A stretch of DNA of 64,000 nt from Amphritea japonica ATCC BAA-1530 (lineage in GTDB: Bacteria > Pseudomonadota > Gammaproteobacteria > Pseudomonadales > Balneatricaceae). The position numbers and the translations under genes were made by a program. Positions 42,710 through 46,605 of this stretch are shown piece after piece. The notes under the pieces are model-generated. The model saw nothing but the letters and a program-made list of their open reading frames with translations. It was not told the DNA's origin and did no database searches. Where the stretch lies: NCBI RefSeq assembly GCF_016592435.1, contig NZ_AP014545.1, forward strand, positions 1,744,693 to 1,808,692, given 5' to 3'. Every line of letters begins with the position of its first letter. The first letter of the stretch is position 1.

Positions 42710-43342
42710 CTAAGCTGGTTTATTCATATCACGTGCTTTGGTCATCGGTATAAACAGGCAGCATAAGCCGCCCAATACTCCGGCAAGGTGTGCCGCTGGA
42801 TAGGGTGGCCAGGGGCTCTGGCTTAACAGCGCCTGGCCGCTAAACTGCTCCCAGATGACTTTACCTATGCAGATCAGCATCGGCAGCCAGCCACTCAATG
42901 ACGGTTGTTTGCGTGCGAATAGCAGTAGACTGATAAACAGCGGGGCAAAGAGAATGCCTGATAACCCTGCGTAGCTGCTGACACCGCTCCAGGGTGATAA
43001 CAGTAACCCGTTTACAGTGATCAAACCTCCCAGTATTGATAGTAATAGCAGCCTTTTTGAATACCTTTCCAGATAGCCAGCTGCCAGTGCAAAAGCGAGG
43101 ATATCCCAGCTGAGATGGCTTGTTGATGTATGGCTTAGATGTCCTGAGATAAGCCGCCATAATTCACCTTCACTAATCAGTCTCTGGTCGAAGTAGCCTA
43201 GCTGGAAGAGTTCAGTTGAGAGGCTGAATGGGAAAGCGAGAAAGATGATACTGAGGGTAATCACCGGTATGAAGCTAACACCTCCCGCATAAGCGGGAGG
43301 GTGCTGTTGTCCAGTGAGTGTATTATATAGCCAGAGGTTCAT
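42710..43342 (-). CDS. rrtA: Rhombosortase
   Basis: A 210-residue rhomboid-type intramembrane serine protease of the rhombosortase group. The nucleophile Ser128 is in YAGLSGILFA, and His185 in YPAAHLAGVLGG forms the dyad. The GHLSHTSTSHLSWD segment, with three His, is typical. Six hydrophobic segments are seen. Rhombosortases cleave proteins with a C-terminal GlyGly-CTERM tail. The gene starts 7 nt after the vWA gene stop with GAGG in its end, so the two are translationally coupled; that protein has a matching tail. Confidence 0.88.
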   Translation of the reverse strand: MNLWLYNTLTGQQHPPAYAGGVSFIPVITLSIIFLAFPFSLSTELFQLGYFDQRLISEGELWRLISGHLSHTSTSHLSWDILAFALAAGYLERYSKRLLLLSILGGLITVNGLLLSPWSGVSSYAGLSGILFAPLFISLLLFARKQPSLSGWLPMLICIGKVIWEQFSGQALLSQSPWPPYPAAHLAGVLGGLCCLFIPMTKARDMNKPA

Positions 43343-43349
43343 AGTCGCC

Positions 43350-45482
43350 TCAAGACCGCTTACGGTTGCGATTGTTACTGAATTGAACCAGTAGCAGGGC
43401 AGCGATCAGGAGAAGTACCCAGTGACCGATAGCGCCAGAACCACCGCCCAGGGTTGCCCGGTTATTCGATGGGTTAAACATAGGTTTCTGGTTGTCAGCC
43501 CGTACAGTTTTTACCGGTTGCTGTAGCCGTTGTTGACGGGCGTTGTTTTCAGTATCCGTACGTTGCTGGTTATTTCTGTCTATATTGAGTTGTTTAAACA
43601 CTTCGTCCCTGACAATCAACATAGAGGTGTAGTTTGTTACGAGGTCATACTGGATGGCCAGATCGGTGATCGCCTGTTGAGTATCTTCGTTACTACTTTC
43701 CCCAAGATAATCCATTTTAGCTTGCATGTTTTCAATGCTGGAATAGGCCCAGATTCGCTCCAGCTCGGGATGTAAAAGGCTGCTTTCCGGGAGCGTTACT
43801 TCAGTACTGTATAGTCGTTTTTGATCACCAATTTTACCTGTAAGTGTGACCTGTACGGGCCCTGGTTTGTGGTAGTGTCCTGCGATTGTTAGCTGCTCGC
43901 CCCGATAGAGGGAATTAATCTGCTCAGGAGTCAGATCGGTAACTCTGCCGCCATCAATTTTCAGTTCAACATCCCGAAGCGCCTGATGTGTCATCTTACT
44001 GGTGGCCAGCATTAGCTGACCAACGATGTCATCGGCATTAGAGACGCTGATTGCAAACCCGTTAGAGACATCGGTCATACCATCCAGCAGAGGACGGTTT
44101 GCACTATTACCCATCACGAAAGTGAACAGTCGGATATCGGCTTTTTCCATCAGCGTCAGAAAGCGTTTTTTCTCGGTAACACCGACATTAGCAACACCAT
44201 CGGTGACCAGTATCATCGCGTTGCTTCGGTCTGCATCCAGGTGCTTTAAGCCTTCTGATATACCGGCATAGAGGTCGGTGCCGTCATGGGGCTTATACTG
44301 TTCCAATTGATTTAATAGTGGATTAATAATTTCGGGAGTGGCTGCCTGAAACCCCTTCGAAAAGTCAGTTGCTGAATTGTTAAACAGAACAATCTTGAAA
44401 CGGTCATCTGACTGTAATTTCCCCAGCCCTTGTCGTACGCCTTCAACCAGAGTGCTGTATTTACCCTGCATCGAACCGGATACGTCCAGCACAAAGATCC
44501 AGTCTCGTCCTCCCTGAACAGCCGCAAGGTCGTCTCCAGGGGTCAGAGTCATTAAAAATGTGCCTTGAGAGTCCGTCGCTTTTTTATAACTTATCAGATC
44601 GACGCTACCGGGAAGATCTTGCTTAAGGCGCCAGTAAACAACGATATCCTGATTAAGACTGGCTGCGGGCAATATCCCGGCTGTTTGCGCCAGGACAGGG
44701 TTTAACTGCTGTACTTCTGGATCCTGCTCAATAGGTTGAGGCTCATCTGATGCTAAAGCGTCTGTTGAAAGGGCCCCTGACTGGTTCGCCATGCTGATCT
44801 GCCATTGGGTAGGGTTAAGCTGCTGAATCGATGCCTGAGGCTGTTGTGGGAGGCGGATAGAGTCGACCGGGTAACCTGAACCCAGCGTCATGTTGAAGCT
44901 GAATTTTTCATCGACGACTTCATTTCTGCTCCAGAATGCGTTTTTCTGGTCATCAACGCCGCCATCTTCTAGTGGGTAAACATAGCGTCCGATGCCGGAA
45001 TCGACATGAGCAGGCTGAATATAGACTAACTTGATTCGCACATCACTGTTTGGCTGTACTGGTGTGACGCTAATGTCGAAGGTTTTATGGCTGTCTTTCT
45101 CAACTAATGCTGTCTCTCGTCCTGCCTGTTTTTCCTGCTCATAAATTTGCCGTGCCTGTTGTTTCTTTACGACTTCGCCGGTAACGGGCCTACCATCAAT
45201 CCAGTAGGTAAACTCGCCAACGGCCGCATGCTCAGGTACTGGAAAACTATATATCGCTTCGAGTGCCTTATTACTGGGGTTATGAAATACCTGTTCTACG
45301 CTGGTGACAGCATAACTGTGTTCAAGCACCACATTGACATGGTGTTCTTTGATGCTCAGATCGGGCTGGCTTGAATTGGCTGGTTTTAGTAACCCTGCTG
45401 CGTCAGCAGAAGATGTGACTACGGAGCCTGCGGTAAGTGTAACGGCTATGGCGATAGCGCCGGAAAGTGATTTGATGTTCAT
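43350..45482 (-). CDS. VIT and von Willebrand factor A protein with GlyGly-type C-terminal sorting signal
   Basis: A 710-residue exported protein. It has a signal peptide (1-about 29), a VIT domain (about 38-165), a von Willebrand A domain with MIDAS motif DVSGS at 333-337, and a C-terminal tail (673-710). The tail has LGGGSG at 678-683, a hydrophobic segment WVLLLIAALLLVQF and a basic end RNRKRS. This is the layout of GlyGly-CTERM proteins processed by rhombosortase. The VIT-vWA pair resembles the marine proteobacterial sortase target proteins, which normally carry an LPxTG-like tail beside a sortase gene; none is here. Start at 45482 with AGAGGA. Downstream rrtA is coupled. Confidence 0.85.
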   Translation of the reverse strand: MNIKSLSGAIAIAVTLTAGSVVTSSADAAGLLKPANSSQPDLSIKEHHVNVVLEHSYAVTSVEQVFHNPSNKALEAIYSFPVPEHAAVGEFTYWIDGRPVTGEVVKKQQARQIYEQEKQAGRETALVEKDSHKTFDISVTPVQPNSDVRIKLVYIQPAHVDSGIGRYVYPLEDGGVDDQKNAFWSRNEVVDEKFSFNMTLGSGYPVDSIRLPQQPQASIQQLNPTQWQISMANQSGALSTDALASDEPQPIEQDPEVQQLNPVLAQTAGILPAASLNQDIVVYWRLKQDLPGSVDLISYKKATDSQGTFLMTLTPGDDLAAVQGGRDWIFVLDVSGSMQGKYSTLVEGVRQGLGKLQSDDRFKIVLFNNSATDFSKGFQAATPEIINPLLNQLEQYKPHDGTDLYAGISEGLKHLDADRSNAMILVTDGVANVGVTEKKRFLTLMEKADIRLFTFVMGNSANRPLLDGMTDVSNGFAISVSNADDIVGQLMLATSKMTHQALRDVELKIDGGRVTDLTPEQINSLYRGEQLTIAGHYHKPGPVQVTLTGKIGDQKRLYSTEVTLPESSLLHPELERIWAYSSIENMQAKMDYLGESSNEDTQQAITDLAIQYDLVTNYTSMLIVRDEVFKQLNIDRNNQQRTDTENNARQQRLQQPVKTVRADNQKPMFNPSNNRATLGGGSGAIGHWVLLLIAALLLVQFSNNRNRKRS

Positions 45483-45622: not shown

Positions 45623-46357
45623 TCAGCTTTTACGATAGTTTTTAAACAGGCTGTATTGCCATTGACGAATCGCCAGCACCATAGTGTTGCCATGTTTCTG
45701 TTCCATCGGCAGGGGAGCATCATCGCGAATCTGACTGTTAAACTCTTCTGCGATCCGTTCCATCTTTTTCTGCATAGCGAGATTAGCTTCAGGTGTTAAG
45801 ACGCCGTTCAAAACGATTAGCTTTTCATGTTGCTTATCAAACCGTGAGCGAAAGAAATCCTGTTCTACTTTCTGTTGGAAAAACTGTTGGATCGGGCCAT
45901 TGGGTAACCAGGAAAAGTTAAGGTCGACCAACAGTTTTACCCGGTTGTTGGGCTGGAGCTCTATTATTTTTAGTCGATCAAGCTGTGCAAGCTTGCGAAT
46001 GCACTGATGCTCATCCAGCTCGTAATGGGTAATAATGTCAGAATAGCTAAAGCCATTGATGACACTGACGGCTACCAGCAAGAGTTCCAGATCTGAGGCG
46101 ATCTCTTGTTCCTGTTCCCGGGTCAGGCATGTCAGTCGTTGTTGTTCCTGTGCCATGAGCCGAAACAGCCCGGTCAATTCCAGTCCGGCTAGTTCTGAAA
46201 TTACCTCAAGGCGTTGCAGCGTAAAGTTCTGCTCTGAAAATAGTCGTTTAACAGAGGCTTCACTCAGATCCAGGGCGGCAGCGACATCGATGTAGGTTTT
46301 ACCCTGAGCTTTAAGCTGTTTTTTTAATGTTTGTACCAATGCAGCGGTTTGAGCCAT
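45623..46357 (-). CDS. XRE-like helix-turn-helix transcriptional regulator
   Basis: A 244-residue protein. The N-terminal XRE-type HTH (about 5-65) reads KAQGKTYIDVAAALDLSEASVKRLFSE, a clear helix-turn-helix with recognition helix SEASVKRLF. The rest (about 80-240) has no recognised domain and may bind a ligand or dimerise. Start at MAQTAAL (46357). It is the upstream neighbour of the vWA/rhombosortase operon in the same direction (140 nt gap) and could regulate it; this is inference. Confidence 0.8.
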   Translation of the reverse strand: MAQTAALVQTLKKQLKAQGKTYIDVAAALDLSEASVKRLFSEQNFTLQRLEVISELAGLELTGLFRLMAQEQQRLTCLTREQEQEIASDLELLLVAVSVINGFSYSDIITHYELDEHQCIRKLAQLDRLKIIELQPNNRVKLLVDLNFSWLPNGPIQQFFQQKVEQDFFRSRFDKQHEKLIVLNGVLTPEANLAMQKKMERIAEEFNSQIRDDAPLPMEQKHGNTMVLAIRQWQYSLFKNYRKS

Positions 46358-46605
46358 CACAGATATTCCGAGCAATTATAAAGTTGTGTTTTAACATAGA
46401 ATTAGCCGTAAATCTCAGGGAACGTATTATATTGTGATATTTATACCGTTATCAGTCTTTAGGTCTTAATAATATTTGAGGGTAGGTTAGCAGTGTAATC
46501 AGCGTAGGCTCTTTAAGGATCAGTTACGTCTTGGTATAACAGCTGTAGCTAGCGCCAGGCTAAACGGGTTCGCTGACTGTAACGACTATCAAATTGGAGA
46601 TGTAA

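Follow-up and report, generated by a model that had tools for sequence, protein, structure and literature searches.

A VIT-vWA protein with a GlyGly-like tail and its adjacent rhombosortase, a member of a VIT-linked enzyme clade, in Amphritea japonica

Bacterial homologues of vault proteins, with VIT and vWA domains, have been described with GlyGly-CTERM, PEP-CTERM or LPXTG tails (Haft and Varghese 2011, PMC3237569, section 12 and legend of Figure 3C). Table 3 of that paper lists dedicated pairs of a rhombosortase and an adjacent target, Neptuniibacter caesariensis among them, and a histidine four positions after the catalytic serine (Ser+4, SGxxH) is reported there for virtually all rhombosortases. 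In Vibrio cholerae, the rhombosortase RssP cuts VesB after Gly383 of the motif SGGS (PMC6219818 and PMC11389362). Here we describe a VIT-vWA gene followed directly by a rhombosortase gene in Amphritea japonica ATCC BAA-1530, within a stretch of 64,000 nucleotides of contig NZ_AP014545.1 (positions 1,744,693 to 1,808,692), hereafter the window. The locus of N. caesariensis MED92 (L084) is also a VIT-vWA/rhombosortase pair, of the same clade as that of the window; from the species and the single pair listed, we infer that it is the pair of Table 3. Since alternative tails on VIT/vWA proteins and dedicated pairs are both described in PMC3237569, the pairing, which was the central point of an original prediction for this locus, was already known. 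What seems to be new is a VIT-linked enzyme branch marked by its own residues. No such branch was found in the literature covered on rhombosortases and on GlyGly-CTERM and vWA proteins; the supplementary tree of PMC3237569, outside that coverage, may show it.

Both genes are minus-strand open reading frames, confirmed at 42710-43342 (rhombosortase, 210 amino acids) and 43350-45482 (VIT-vWA gene, 710 amino acids from its ATG). The features of the pair are the following.

43350..45482, minus strand: VIT-vWA protein with signal-peptide-like N-terminus and GlyGly-like C-terminal sorting tail, 710 amino acids (reading frame and Pfam)
45021..45353, minus strand: VIT domain, residues 44-154 (Pfam PF08487, 8e-34)
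44028..44498, minus strand: vWA domain, residues 329-485, with DVSGSM motif (Pfam PF00092/PF13768)
43353..43448, minus strand: C-terminal sorting tail, residues 679-710, with GGGSGA, hydrophobic segment and basic end; predicted cut after Gly683
43343..43351, minus strand: gap of 7 nucleotides from the VIT-vWA stop to the ATG of the rhombosortase; a GAGG overlaps the TGA stop codon (seen in the sequence)
42710..43342, minus strand: rhombosortase, 210 amino acids, with Ser128 and His185; Trp79, Asp80, Phe132 and Trp178 are marks of the VIT-linked clade

The window enzyme scores 109.9 bits against the rhombosortase model TIGR03902 (cut-off 84), which places it in the family, and is also matched by Pfam Rhomboid. 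It possesses the catalytic Ser128 in transmembrane segment 4, His185 in transmembrane segment 6, and the WRxxS/T motif as WRLIS at residues 62-66. The Ser+4 position is occupied by Phe132 in place of the histidine of SGxxH; because PMC3237569 allows exceptions to this motif, the missing histidine weakens the description as a typical rhombosortase and leaves TIGR03902 membership untouched. The predicted fold has a mean predicted local distance difference test score of 89.1, and its best PDB match is GlpG (5f5k_A, Z 17.7, root-mean-square deviation 2.9, 164 residues aligned), with the serine motifs of the two proteins aligned. The enzyme thus resembles Escherichia coli GlpG in fold and in the catalytic Ser/His region. 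It differs in being short, whereas GlpG has an N-terminal cytoplasmic domain (PMC6219818, PMC11389362), and in residues: E165 and W178 occur in none of the eight rhomboid rows compared, nor does K161 appear among the letters displayed for those rows. Six structure matches to iRhom and Derlin entries (Z 12.3-15.5) belong to the same superfamily and add nothing.

The VIT-vWA protein ends in ...LGGGSGAIGHWVLLLIAALLLVQFSNNRNRKRS, a Gly/Ser motif followed by a hydrophobic stretch (mean Kyte-Doolittle hydropathy 2.39 over residues 683-699) and a basic end. With its Gly-rich motif, one transmembrane segment, a basic cluster at the extreme C-terminus and an N-terminal signal peptide, the last called from hydropathy and by eye only, it has the whole tripartite GlyGly-CTERM layout. 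Gly681 and Gly683 are invariant among 15 aligned VIT-vWA proteins. The vWA domain suggests metal-dependent adhesion, and its DVSGSM motif is presumably of the metal ion-dependent adhesion site (MIDAS) kind. Against TIGR03788, the marine proteobacterial sortase-target model, the protein reaches 240 bits with a cut-off of 551.65 and is not a member.

In these respects the locus resembles the dedicated pairs of Haft and Varghese, namely a single target with an adjacent rhombosortase and a tripartite Gly-rich tail; it departs from them by Phe132 at Ser+4, histidine being found there in 0 of 62 VIT-adjacent enzymes, and by a tail outside the GlyGly-CTERM model TIGR03501. Like RssP with VesB, it joins a Ser/His rhombosortase to a target with a GlyGly-CTERM tail, and RssP cuts after Gly. 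Unlike RssP, for which six GlyGly-CTERM proteins are reported, the window enzyme has one known target, in cis; the motif is GSG-A instead of SGG-S, and the surroundings of the active site differ (PMC6219818, PMC11389362). With the TIGR03788 target and its sortase it has in common the VIT and vWA domains, a tripartite C-terminal tail and an adjacent processing enzyme; it is set apart by its score below the cut-off, its separate clade, the absence of a sortase and its GlyGly-like tail.

Several parts of the original prediction are borne out by these data. The adjacent enzyme is a rhombosortase with its dyad at the positions proposed, and the tail is GlyGly-like in composition, even though it falls below TIGR03501. 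A marine sortase elsewhere in the genome acting on the tail, or an LPxTG-like motif within it, had been named as observations that would speak otherwise: PF04203 has 0 matches in the genome, and neither the LPXTG models nor the pattern P.T[AGS] match the tail. As for the proposed translational coupling, the 7-nucleotide spacing and the GAGG over the stop are compatible with it and are no proof of it.

The window genome is complete (3.83 Mb), and the nearest named match to its VIT-vWA protein comes from an Amphritea sp. (89%). It encodes one rhombosortase over the cut-off and one GlpG-like rhomboid below it (L003, 45.9 bits). A model built from 61 VIT-vWA tails finds only the VIT-vWA protein in this genome, the next match having an E value of 1.16. 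The single weak genome match to TIGR03501 sits inside a COX15-like reading frame (named by eye) and was rejected as a further target. With one rhombosortase, no sortase match and no second tail of the same type, the pair is a dedicated one-to-one system of adjacent enzyme and target, as far as the models used can detect. The type II secretin GspD is also encoded, over its cut-off (473 bits).

Conservation was followed in 57 genomes, the window genome included, of which 36 belong to its own family and 21 do not. A close VIT-vWA protein is found in 16 of the 57, the 15 orthologues besides that of the window being 56-90% identical to it, and a rhombosortase adjoins the gene in 14 of the 16. One of the two exceptions is a contig that ends inside the target gene (G004); in the other, G041, the rhombosortase lies on another contig. 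Within the own family the pair arrangement occurs in 14 of 15 target genomes, the 15th being that which ends in the target gene, and a rhombosortase over the cut-off is encoded in 14 of the 15 target-bearing genomes and in 0 of the 21 that lack the target (Fisher p 4e-9, kinship ignored). The adjacency of target and enzyme is not due to chance. Among the genomes outside the family, nine have a rhombosortase over the cut-off, and only G041 among these nine has a close VIT-vWA protein; the other eight indicate that rhombosortases with other targets are common. The G041 orthologue (L235) is 56% identical, has a GlyGly tail without an adjacent rhombosortase, and the enzyme elsewhere in its genome is of the general type. 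Carriage of the gene on plasmids was considered and rejected: 20 plasmid records match, all below 60% identity, and the 10 listed are at 22.6-24.6%, five of them annotated as sortase targets.

In total, 189 distinct rhombosortase reading frames were collected, identical ones and those below 65 bits being left out. They comprise 62 VIT-adjacent enzymes, 61 by rule and L350, which was moved because a VIT-vWA tail is seen at its contig end, and 127 others. Histidine at Ser+4 is present in 106 of the 127 others and in none of the 62, which have Asn (31), Phe (18), Tyr (11) or Cys (2); in the class sample of 369 genomes alone, it is found in 0 of 10 VIT-adjacent enzymes. Trp79 and Trp178 occur together in 61 of the 62 and in 0 of the 127, among which Trp178 alone is found in three and Trp79 alone in one; Trp178 is present in all 62. 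The position aligned with Asn154 of GlpG, a residue with an oxyanion role, is Asp in 45 of 61 VIT-adjacent enzymes and Asn in 16. W62, H71, H76, K161, E165 and the catalytic Ser and His are common to the VIT-linked enzyme and most general rhombosortases.

Phylogenetic analysis places the rhombosortases beside VIT-vWA genes in one clade, with only L350 unlabelled inside their common ancestor (197-row tree). In the careful tree (83 of the 197 rows) this clade has supports of 89/86 with L350 and 95/92 when the sister row L341 is added. Against TIGR03902, the enzymes at the 10 VIT-adjacent loci in the class sample score from 86.9 to 113.2 bits, and those of 14 genomes whose VIT-vWA gene lacks an adjacent rhombosortase score from 125.6 to 161.5 bits. 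The sister row L341 has Tyr at Ser+4 and Trp178, and some 40 kb from it in the same genome (G366) lies the gene of a VIT-vWA protein whose tail is PEP-like. Two further rhombosortases, L347 and L352, have Asn and Ser at this position and adjoin proteins of about 300 amino acids with GlyGly-like tails, which by eye resemble rhombotarget lipoproteins; other dedicated pairs such as these may also be without the Ser+4 histidine. A tail detector, built to try in general whether dedicated enzymes lack the histidine, recovered only 40 of the 61 known cis tails and also picked out 170 of 1838 background reading frames, and was thus too coarse to carry the rule beyond VIT-vWA. A comparison of histidine and adjacency over independent pairs comprised two pairs only and had no power.

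The 104 GlyGly-type VIT-vWA rows include 61 with a rhombosortase directly downstream (cis), 38 in which 2 kb or more of downstream sequence contain none (trans) and five undecided. Within the class sample, a rhombosortase over the cut-off is found in 22 of 22 genomes with a GlyGly VIT-vWA protein and in 104 of 347 others (kinship ignored). In 14 trans genomes, 13 of the class sample and G041, the enzyme is of the other type, with His at Ser+4 in 12, Tyr in two and the Trp pair in none. The tails differ somewhat in kind as well: with E values up to 1, TIGR03501 recognises 17 of the 61 cis tails and 27 of the 38 in trans, and the variant model TIGR03867 recognises 16 of 61 and 1 of 38, respectively. 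Counted over frames of at least 100 amino acids, with the own VIT-vWA protein included and at any position in the frame, TIGR03501 matches over the cut-off number at most one in each of 14 cis genomes and at least two in 9 of 14 trans genomes, in line with the rule of PMC3237569 by which a dedicated enzyme adjoins its target. On the careful VIT-vWA tree, six or more changes of the cis label fall on starred branches, and 11 cis/trans changes are found on the larger tree. The GlyGly targets thus seem to have shifted between a private enzyme and a general one; taken with the enzyme types, what switches seems to be the kind of rhombosortase.

Altogether 177 distinct VIT-vWA rows were compared, 104 of GlyGly type, 59 with an adjacent sortase and 14 with neither. 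Rows below 150 bits, shorter than 550 amino acids or identical were dropped, so that the frameshifted gene of G090 (L221) stands outside the 177; the trees omit incomplete rows, the large tree also omits half of the sortase rows, and the careful VIT-vWA tree holds 50 of 144 rows. In the careful tree the GlyGly and the sortase groups each form one side of a branch, with supports of 100/100 and 100/99, and the branch between them is very long, its GlyGly portion up to the drawn root already amounting to 3.23 changes per column. The 144-row tree agrees. A sortase-type protein over the cut-off is encoded in 14 of the 22 GlyGly genomes of the class sample and in 36 of the 347 others (p 1.7e-8, kinship ignored), and a genome of the same genus as the window (G010) carries both systems. 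In the neighbour listings no sortase-type row has a rhombosortase and no GlyGly row has a sortase, except at L129. The two systems coexist rather than replace one another, contrary to what replacement predicts, and they are best seen as old lineages running in parallel, not as a single target whose machinery was swapped.

At L129 (874-6776, Pseudohongiella), both systems lie head to head on opposite strands, a sortase with a sortase-type VIT-vWA gene on one and a GlyGly VIT-vWA gene with a rhombosortase on the other, their open frames about 190 bp apart. Two VIT-vWA proteins outside both main groups, L194 and L200, have tails that by eye resemble PEP-CTERM.

Taken together, the locus is probably a one-enzyme, one-substrate GlyGly-CTERM/rhombosortase module, its enzyme belonging to a VIT-specialised clade, its target to one of two parallel VIT-vWA lineages, with a change of enzyme between cis and trans arrangements. 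Around the genes, domains, motif, conservation, co-occurrence and secretin observed, we infer every biochemical step by analogy. The VIT-vWA protein, given its signal-peptide-like N-terminus, would be exported by Sec, and its tail would keep it anchored in the inner membrane. The adjacent rhombosortase would then cut near Gly683 (GSGA), just outside the hydrophobic segment, as RssP does in VesB. A lipid head group that contains ethanolamine would probably be attached to the new C-terminus, and the protein may reach the cell surface via the type II system, for which the GspD gene is present. The enzyme would act with the Ser-His dyad that the clade keeps; the clade's Ser+4 residue is Phe, Tyr, Asn or Cys, positions 79 and 178 are Trp, and the counterpart of GlpG Asn154 is mostly Asp.

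Several observations weigh against this reading. On the side of the tails, the window tail reaches none of the NCBIfam sorting models, TIGR03501 (cut-off 15.5 bits) included, whether the whole protein, the tail alone or the genome is searched; TIGR03867 matches no more than 16 of the 61 cis tails. LPXTG_anchor matches 5 of 38 trans tails (E up to 1), P.T[AGS] is present in 13 of 99 complete GlyGly tails, running straight into the Gly run in five trans tails among them, and MYXO-CTERM and other sorting models weakly match some GlyGly tails (TIGR03901, 14 of 61 cis and 20 of 38 trans). As regards the enzymes, the Ser+4 histidine is also missing in 21 of the 127 other rhombosortases. The collection is uneven, most VIT-adjacent rows having come from a search with the VIT-vWA protein, and since these form one clade with one inherited state, the 62 rows without His are not independent. 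In the rhombosortase tree, bootstrap values had not yet converged. Some general enzymes, from genomes that lack a GlyGly VIT-vWA protein, likewise score 74-114 bits against TIGR03902 (e.g., 108.7 and 106.7), and with this overlap the score alone cannot separate the two kinds. For the trans arrangement, the label means that no rhombosortase lies within the 2-4 kb of sequence at the locus, two of the 14 trans enzymes have Tyr instead of His (L326 and L042), and the general rhombosortase is a candidate enzyme for these tails. The GlpG-like L003 of the window genome could share the work of cleavage. For the two lineages, 14 VIT-vWA rows fit neither group, and the sortase group is not uniform, with strict P.T[AGS] in 40 of 59 tails, at least a looser form in 52 and neither in seven. 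Long-branch warnings were given by the tree checks, among them one for L197 next to the GlyGly group, and alignment across so deep a split is uncertain.

A more far-reaching possibility, which is held only tentatively, is that of orthogonal sorting. VIT-linked enzymes (Trp79, Trp178, no Ser+4 His, Asp at the GlpG Asn154 position) and their tails, which are mostly outside TIGR03501 and read GSG-A-x-x-x-W in the genus of the window, would have diverged together; the lineage would have moved repeatedly between private and general enzyme, each enzyme in genomes with two rhombosortases would serve its own target only, and the GlyGly and sortase systems would work as partners in shared envelopes. 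The genome G405 encodes two rhombosortases (L226 and L246), a general enzyme with SGxxH and a VIT-linked enzyme beside the target, and offers a natural test of orthogonality.

It is rather unlikely that the adjacent enzyme is an ordinary rhombosortase whose histidine was lost by neutral drift and whose pairing reflects co-expression only. The catalytic residues and W62, H71, H76, K161 and E165 are indeed those of most general enzymes, the Ser+4 residue varies among N, F, Y and C within the clade as under relaxed constraint, and non-rhombosortase rhomboids have Tyr or Phe at this position (PMC3237569; 8 of 8 rows compared). Drift does not, however, fit the fixation of Trp178 (62 of 62) and Trp79 (61 of 62) as a pair absent from the 127 others, nor the difference between cis and trans tails in their matches to TIGR03501 and TIGR03867.

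The original prediction took the target for a member of the marine sortase-target family on which the sorting machinery had been swapped from sortase to rhombosortase. The two groups do agree in their VIT and vWA domains and in the tripartite tail, a processing gene often adjoins the target in both, Figure 3C of PMC3237569 puts them in one family with different tails, and a very old change of machinery between the lineages would be necessary if their shared ancestor had a tail. The target, at 240 of 551.65 bits, lies outside that family, a very long branch, supported at 100/100, separates the two groups, and both systems coexist in 14 of 22 GlyGly genomes and head to head in L129. The proposed survey of adjacent genes, run on the rows collected, gave a rhombosortase beside 61 of 104 GlyGly rows and a sortase beside 59 rows, and no swapped pairing; the proposed search with tail models gave the cis and trans counts above for the GlyGly model, and LPXTG_anchor in the five trans tails. 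A recent swap is rejected on the TIGR03788 score, the trees and the co-occurrence, and the swap as a whole is judged improbable. The least probable reading of all, that the tail is a mere membrane anchor, uncut or cut by the GlpG-like rhomboid, beside an incidental neighbour, can draw on the missed sorting models, the second rhomboid L003 and the cleavage of VesB at a distinct site by V. cholerae GlpG (PMC11389362), and is opposed by the own-family co-occurrence of target and rhombosortase (14 of 15 against 0 of 21) and by the invariant Gly681 and Gly683.

For the favoured module, the residue signature sets a private VIT-vWA-linked branch apart from the other rhombosortases collected, with a change at the hallmark position of 2011. 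The cis and trans genomes form a natural contrast within a single target family: the former encode its own enzyme beside the target, the latter just a general enzyme at another place. Together these make the basis of rhombosortase specificity, and of hydrolysis versus transfer, accessible to testing by small swaps.

Prediction of promoters and terminators in the window gave 5 and 5, with shuffle means of 5.7 and 3.6. One further gene lies upstream of the pair.

45626..46375, minus strand: helix-turn-helix (HTH) regulator-like gene, same strand as the pair, candidate regulator (HTH_3, E 0.00044)

Its HTH_3 match is 20.7 bits, under the Pfam cut-off of 23. Within 1.5 kb and at the threshold used, 31 of 61 cis loci have a relative of this gene upstream (28 on the same strand and three on the opposite strand), as do 13 of 38 trans loci, against 0 of 59 sortase loci. 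In this the window also differs from the TIGR03788 systems, several sortase loci having, by eye, response-regulator-like genes.

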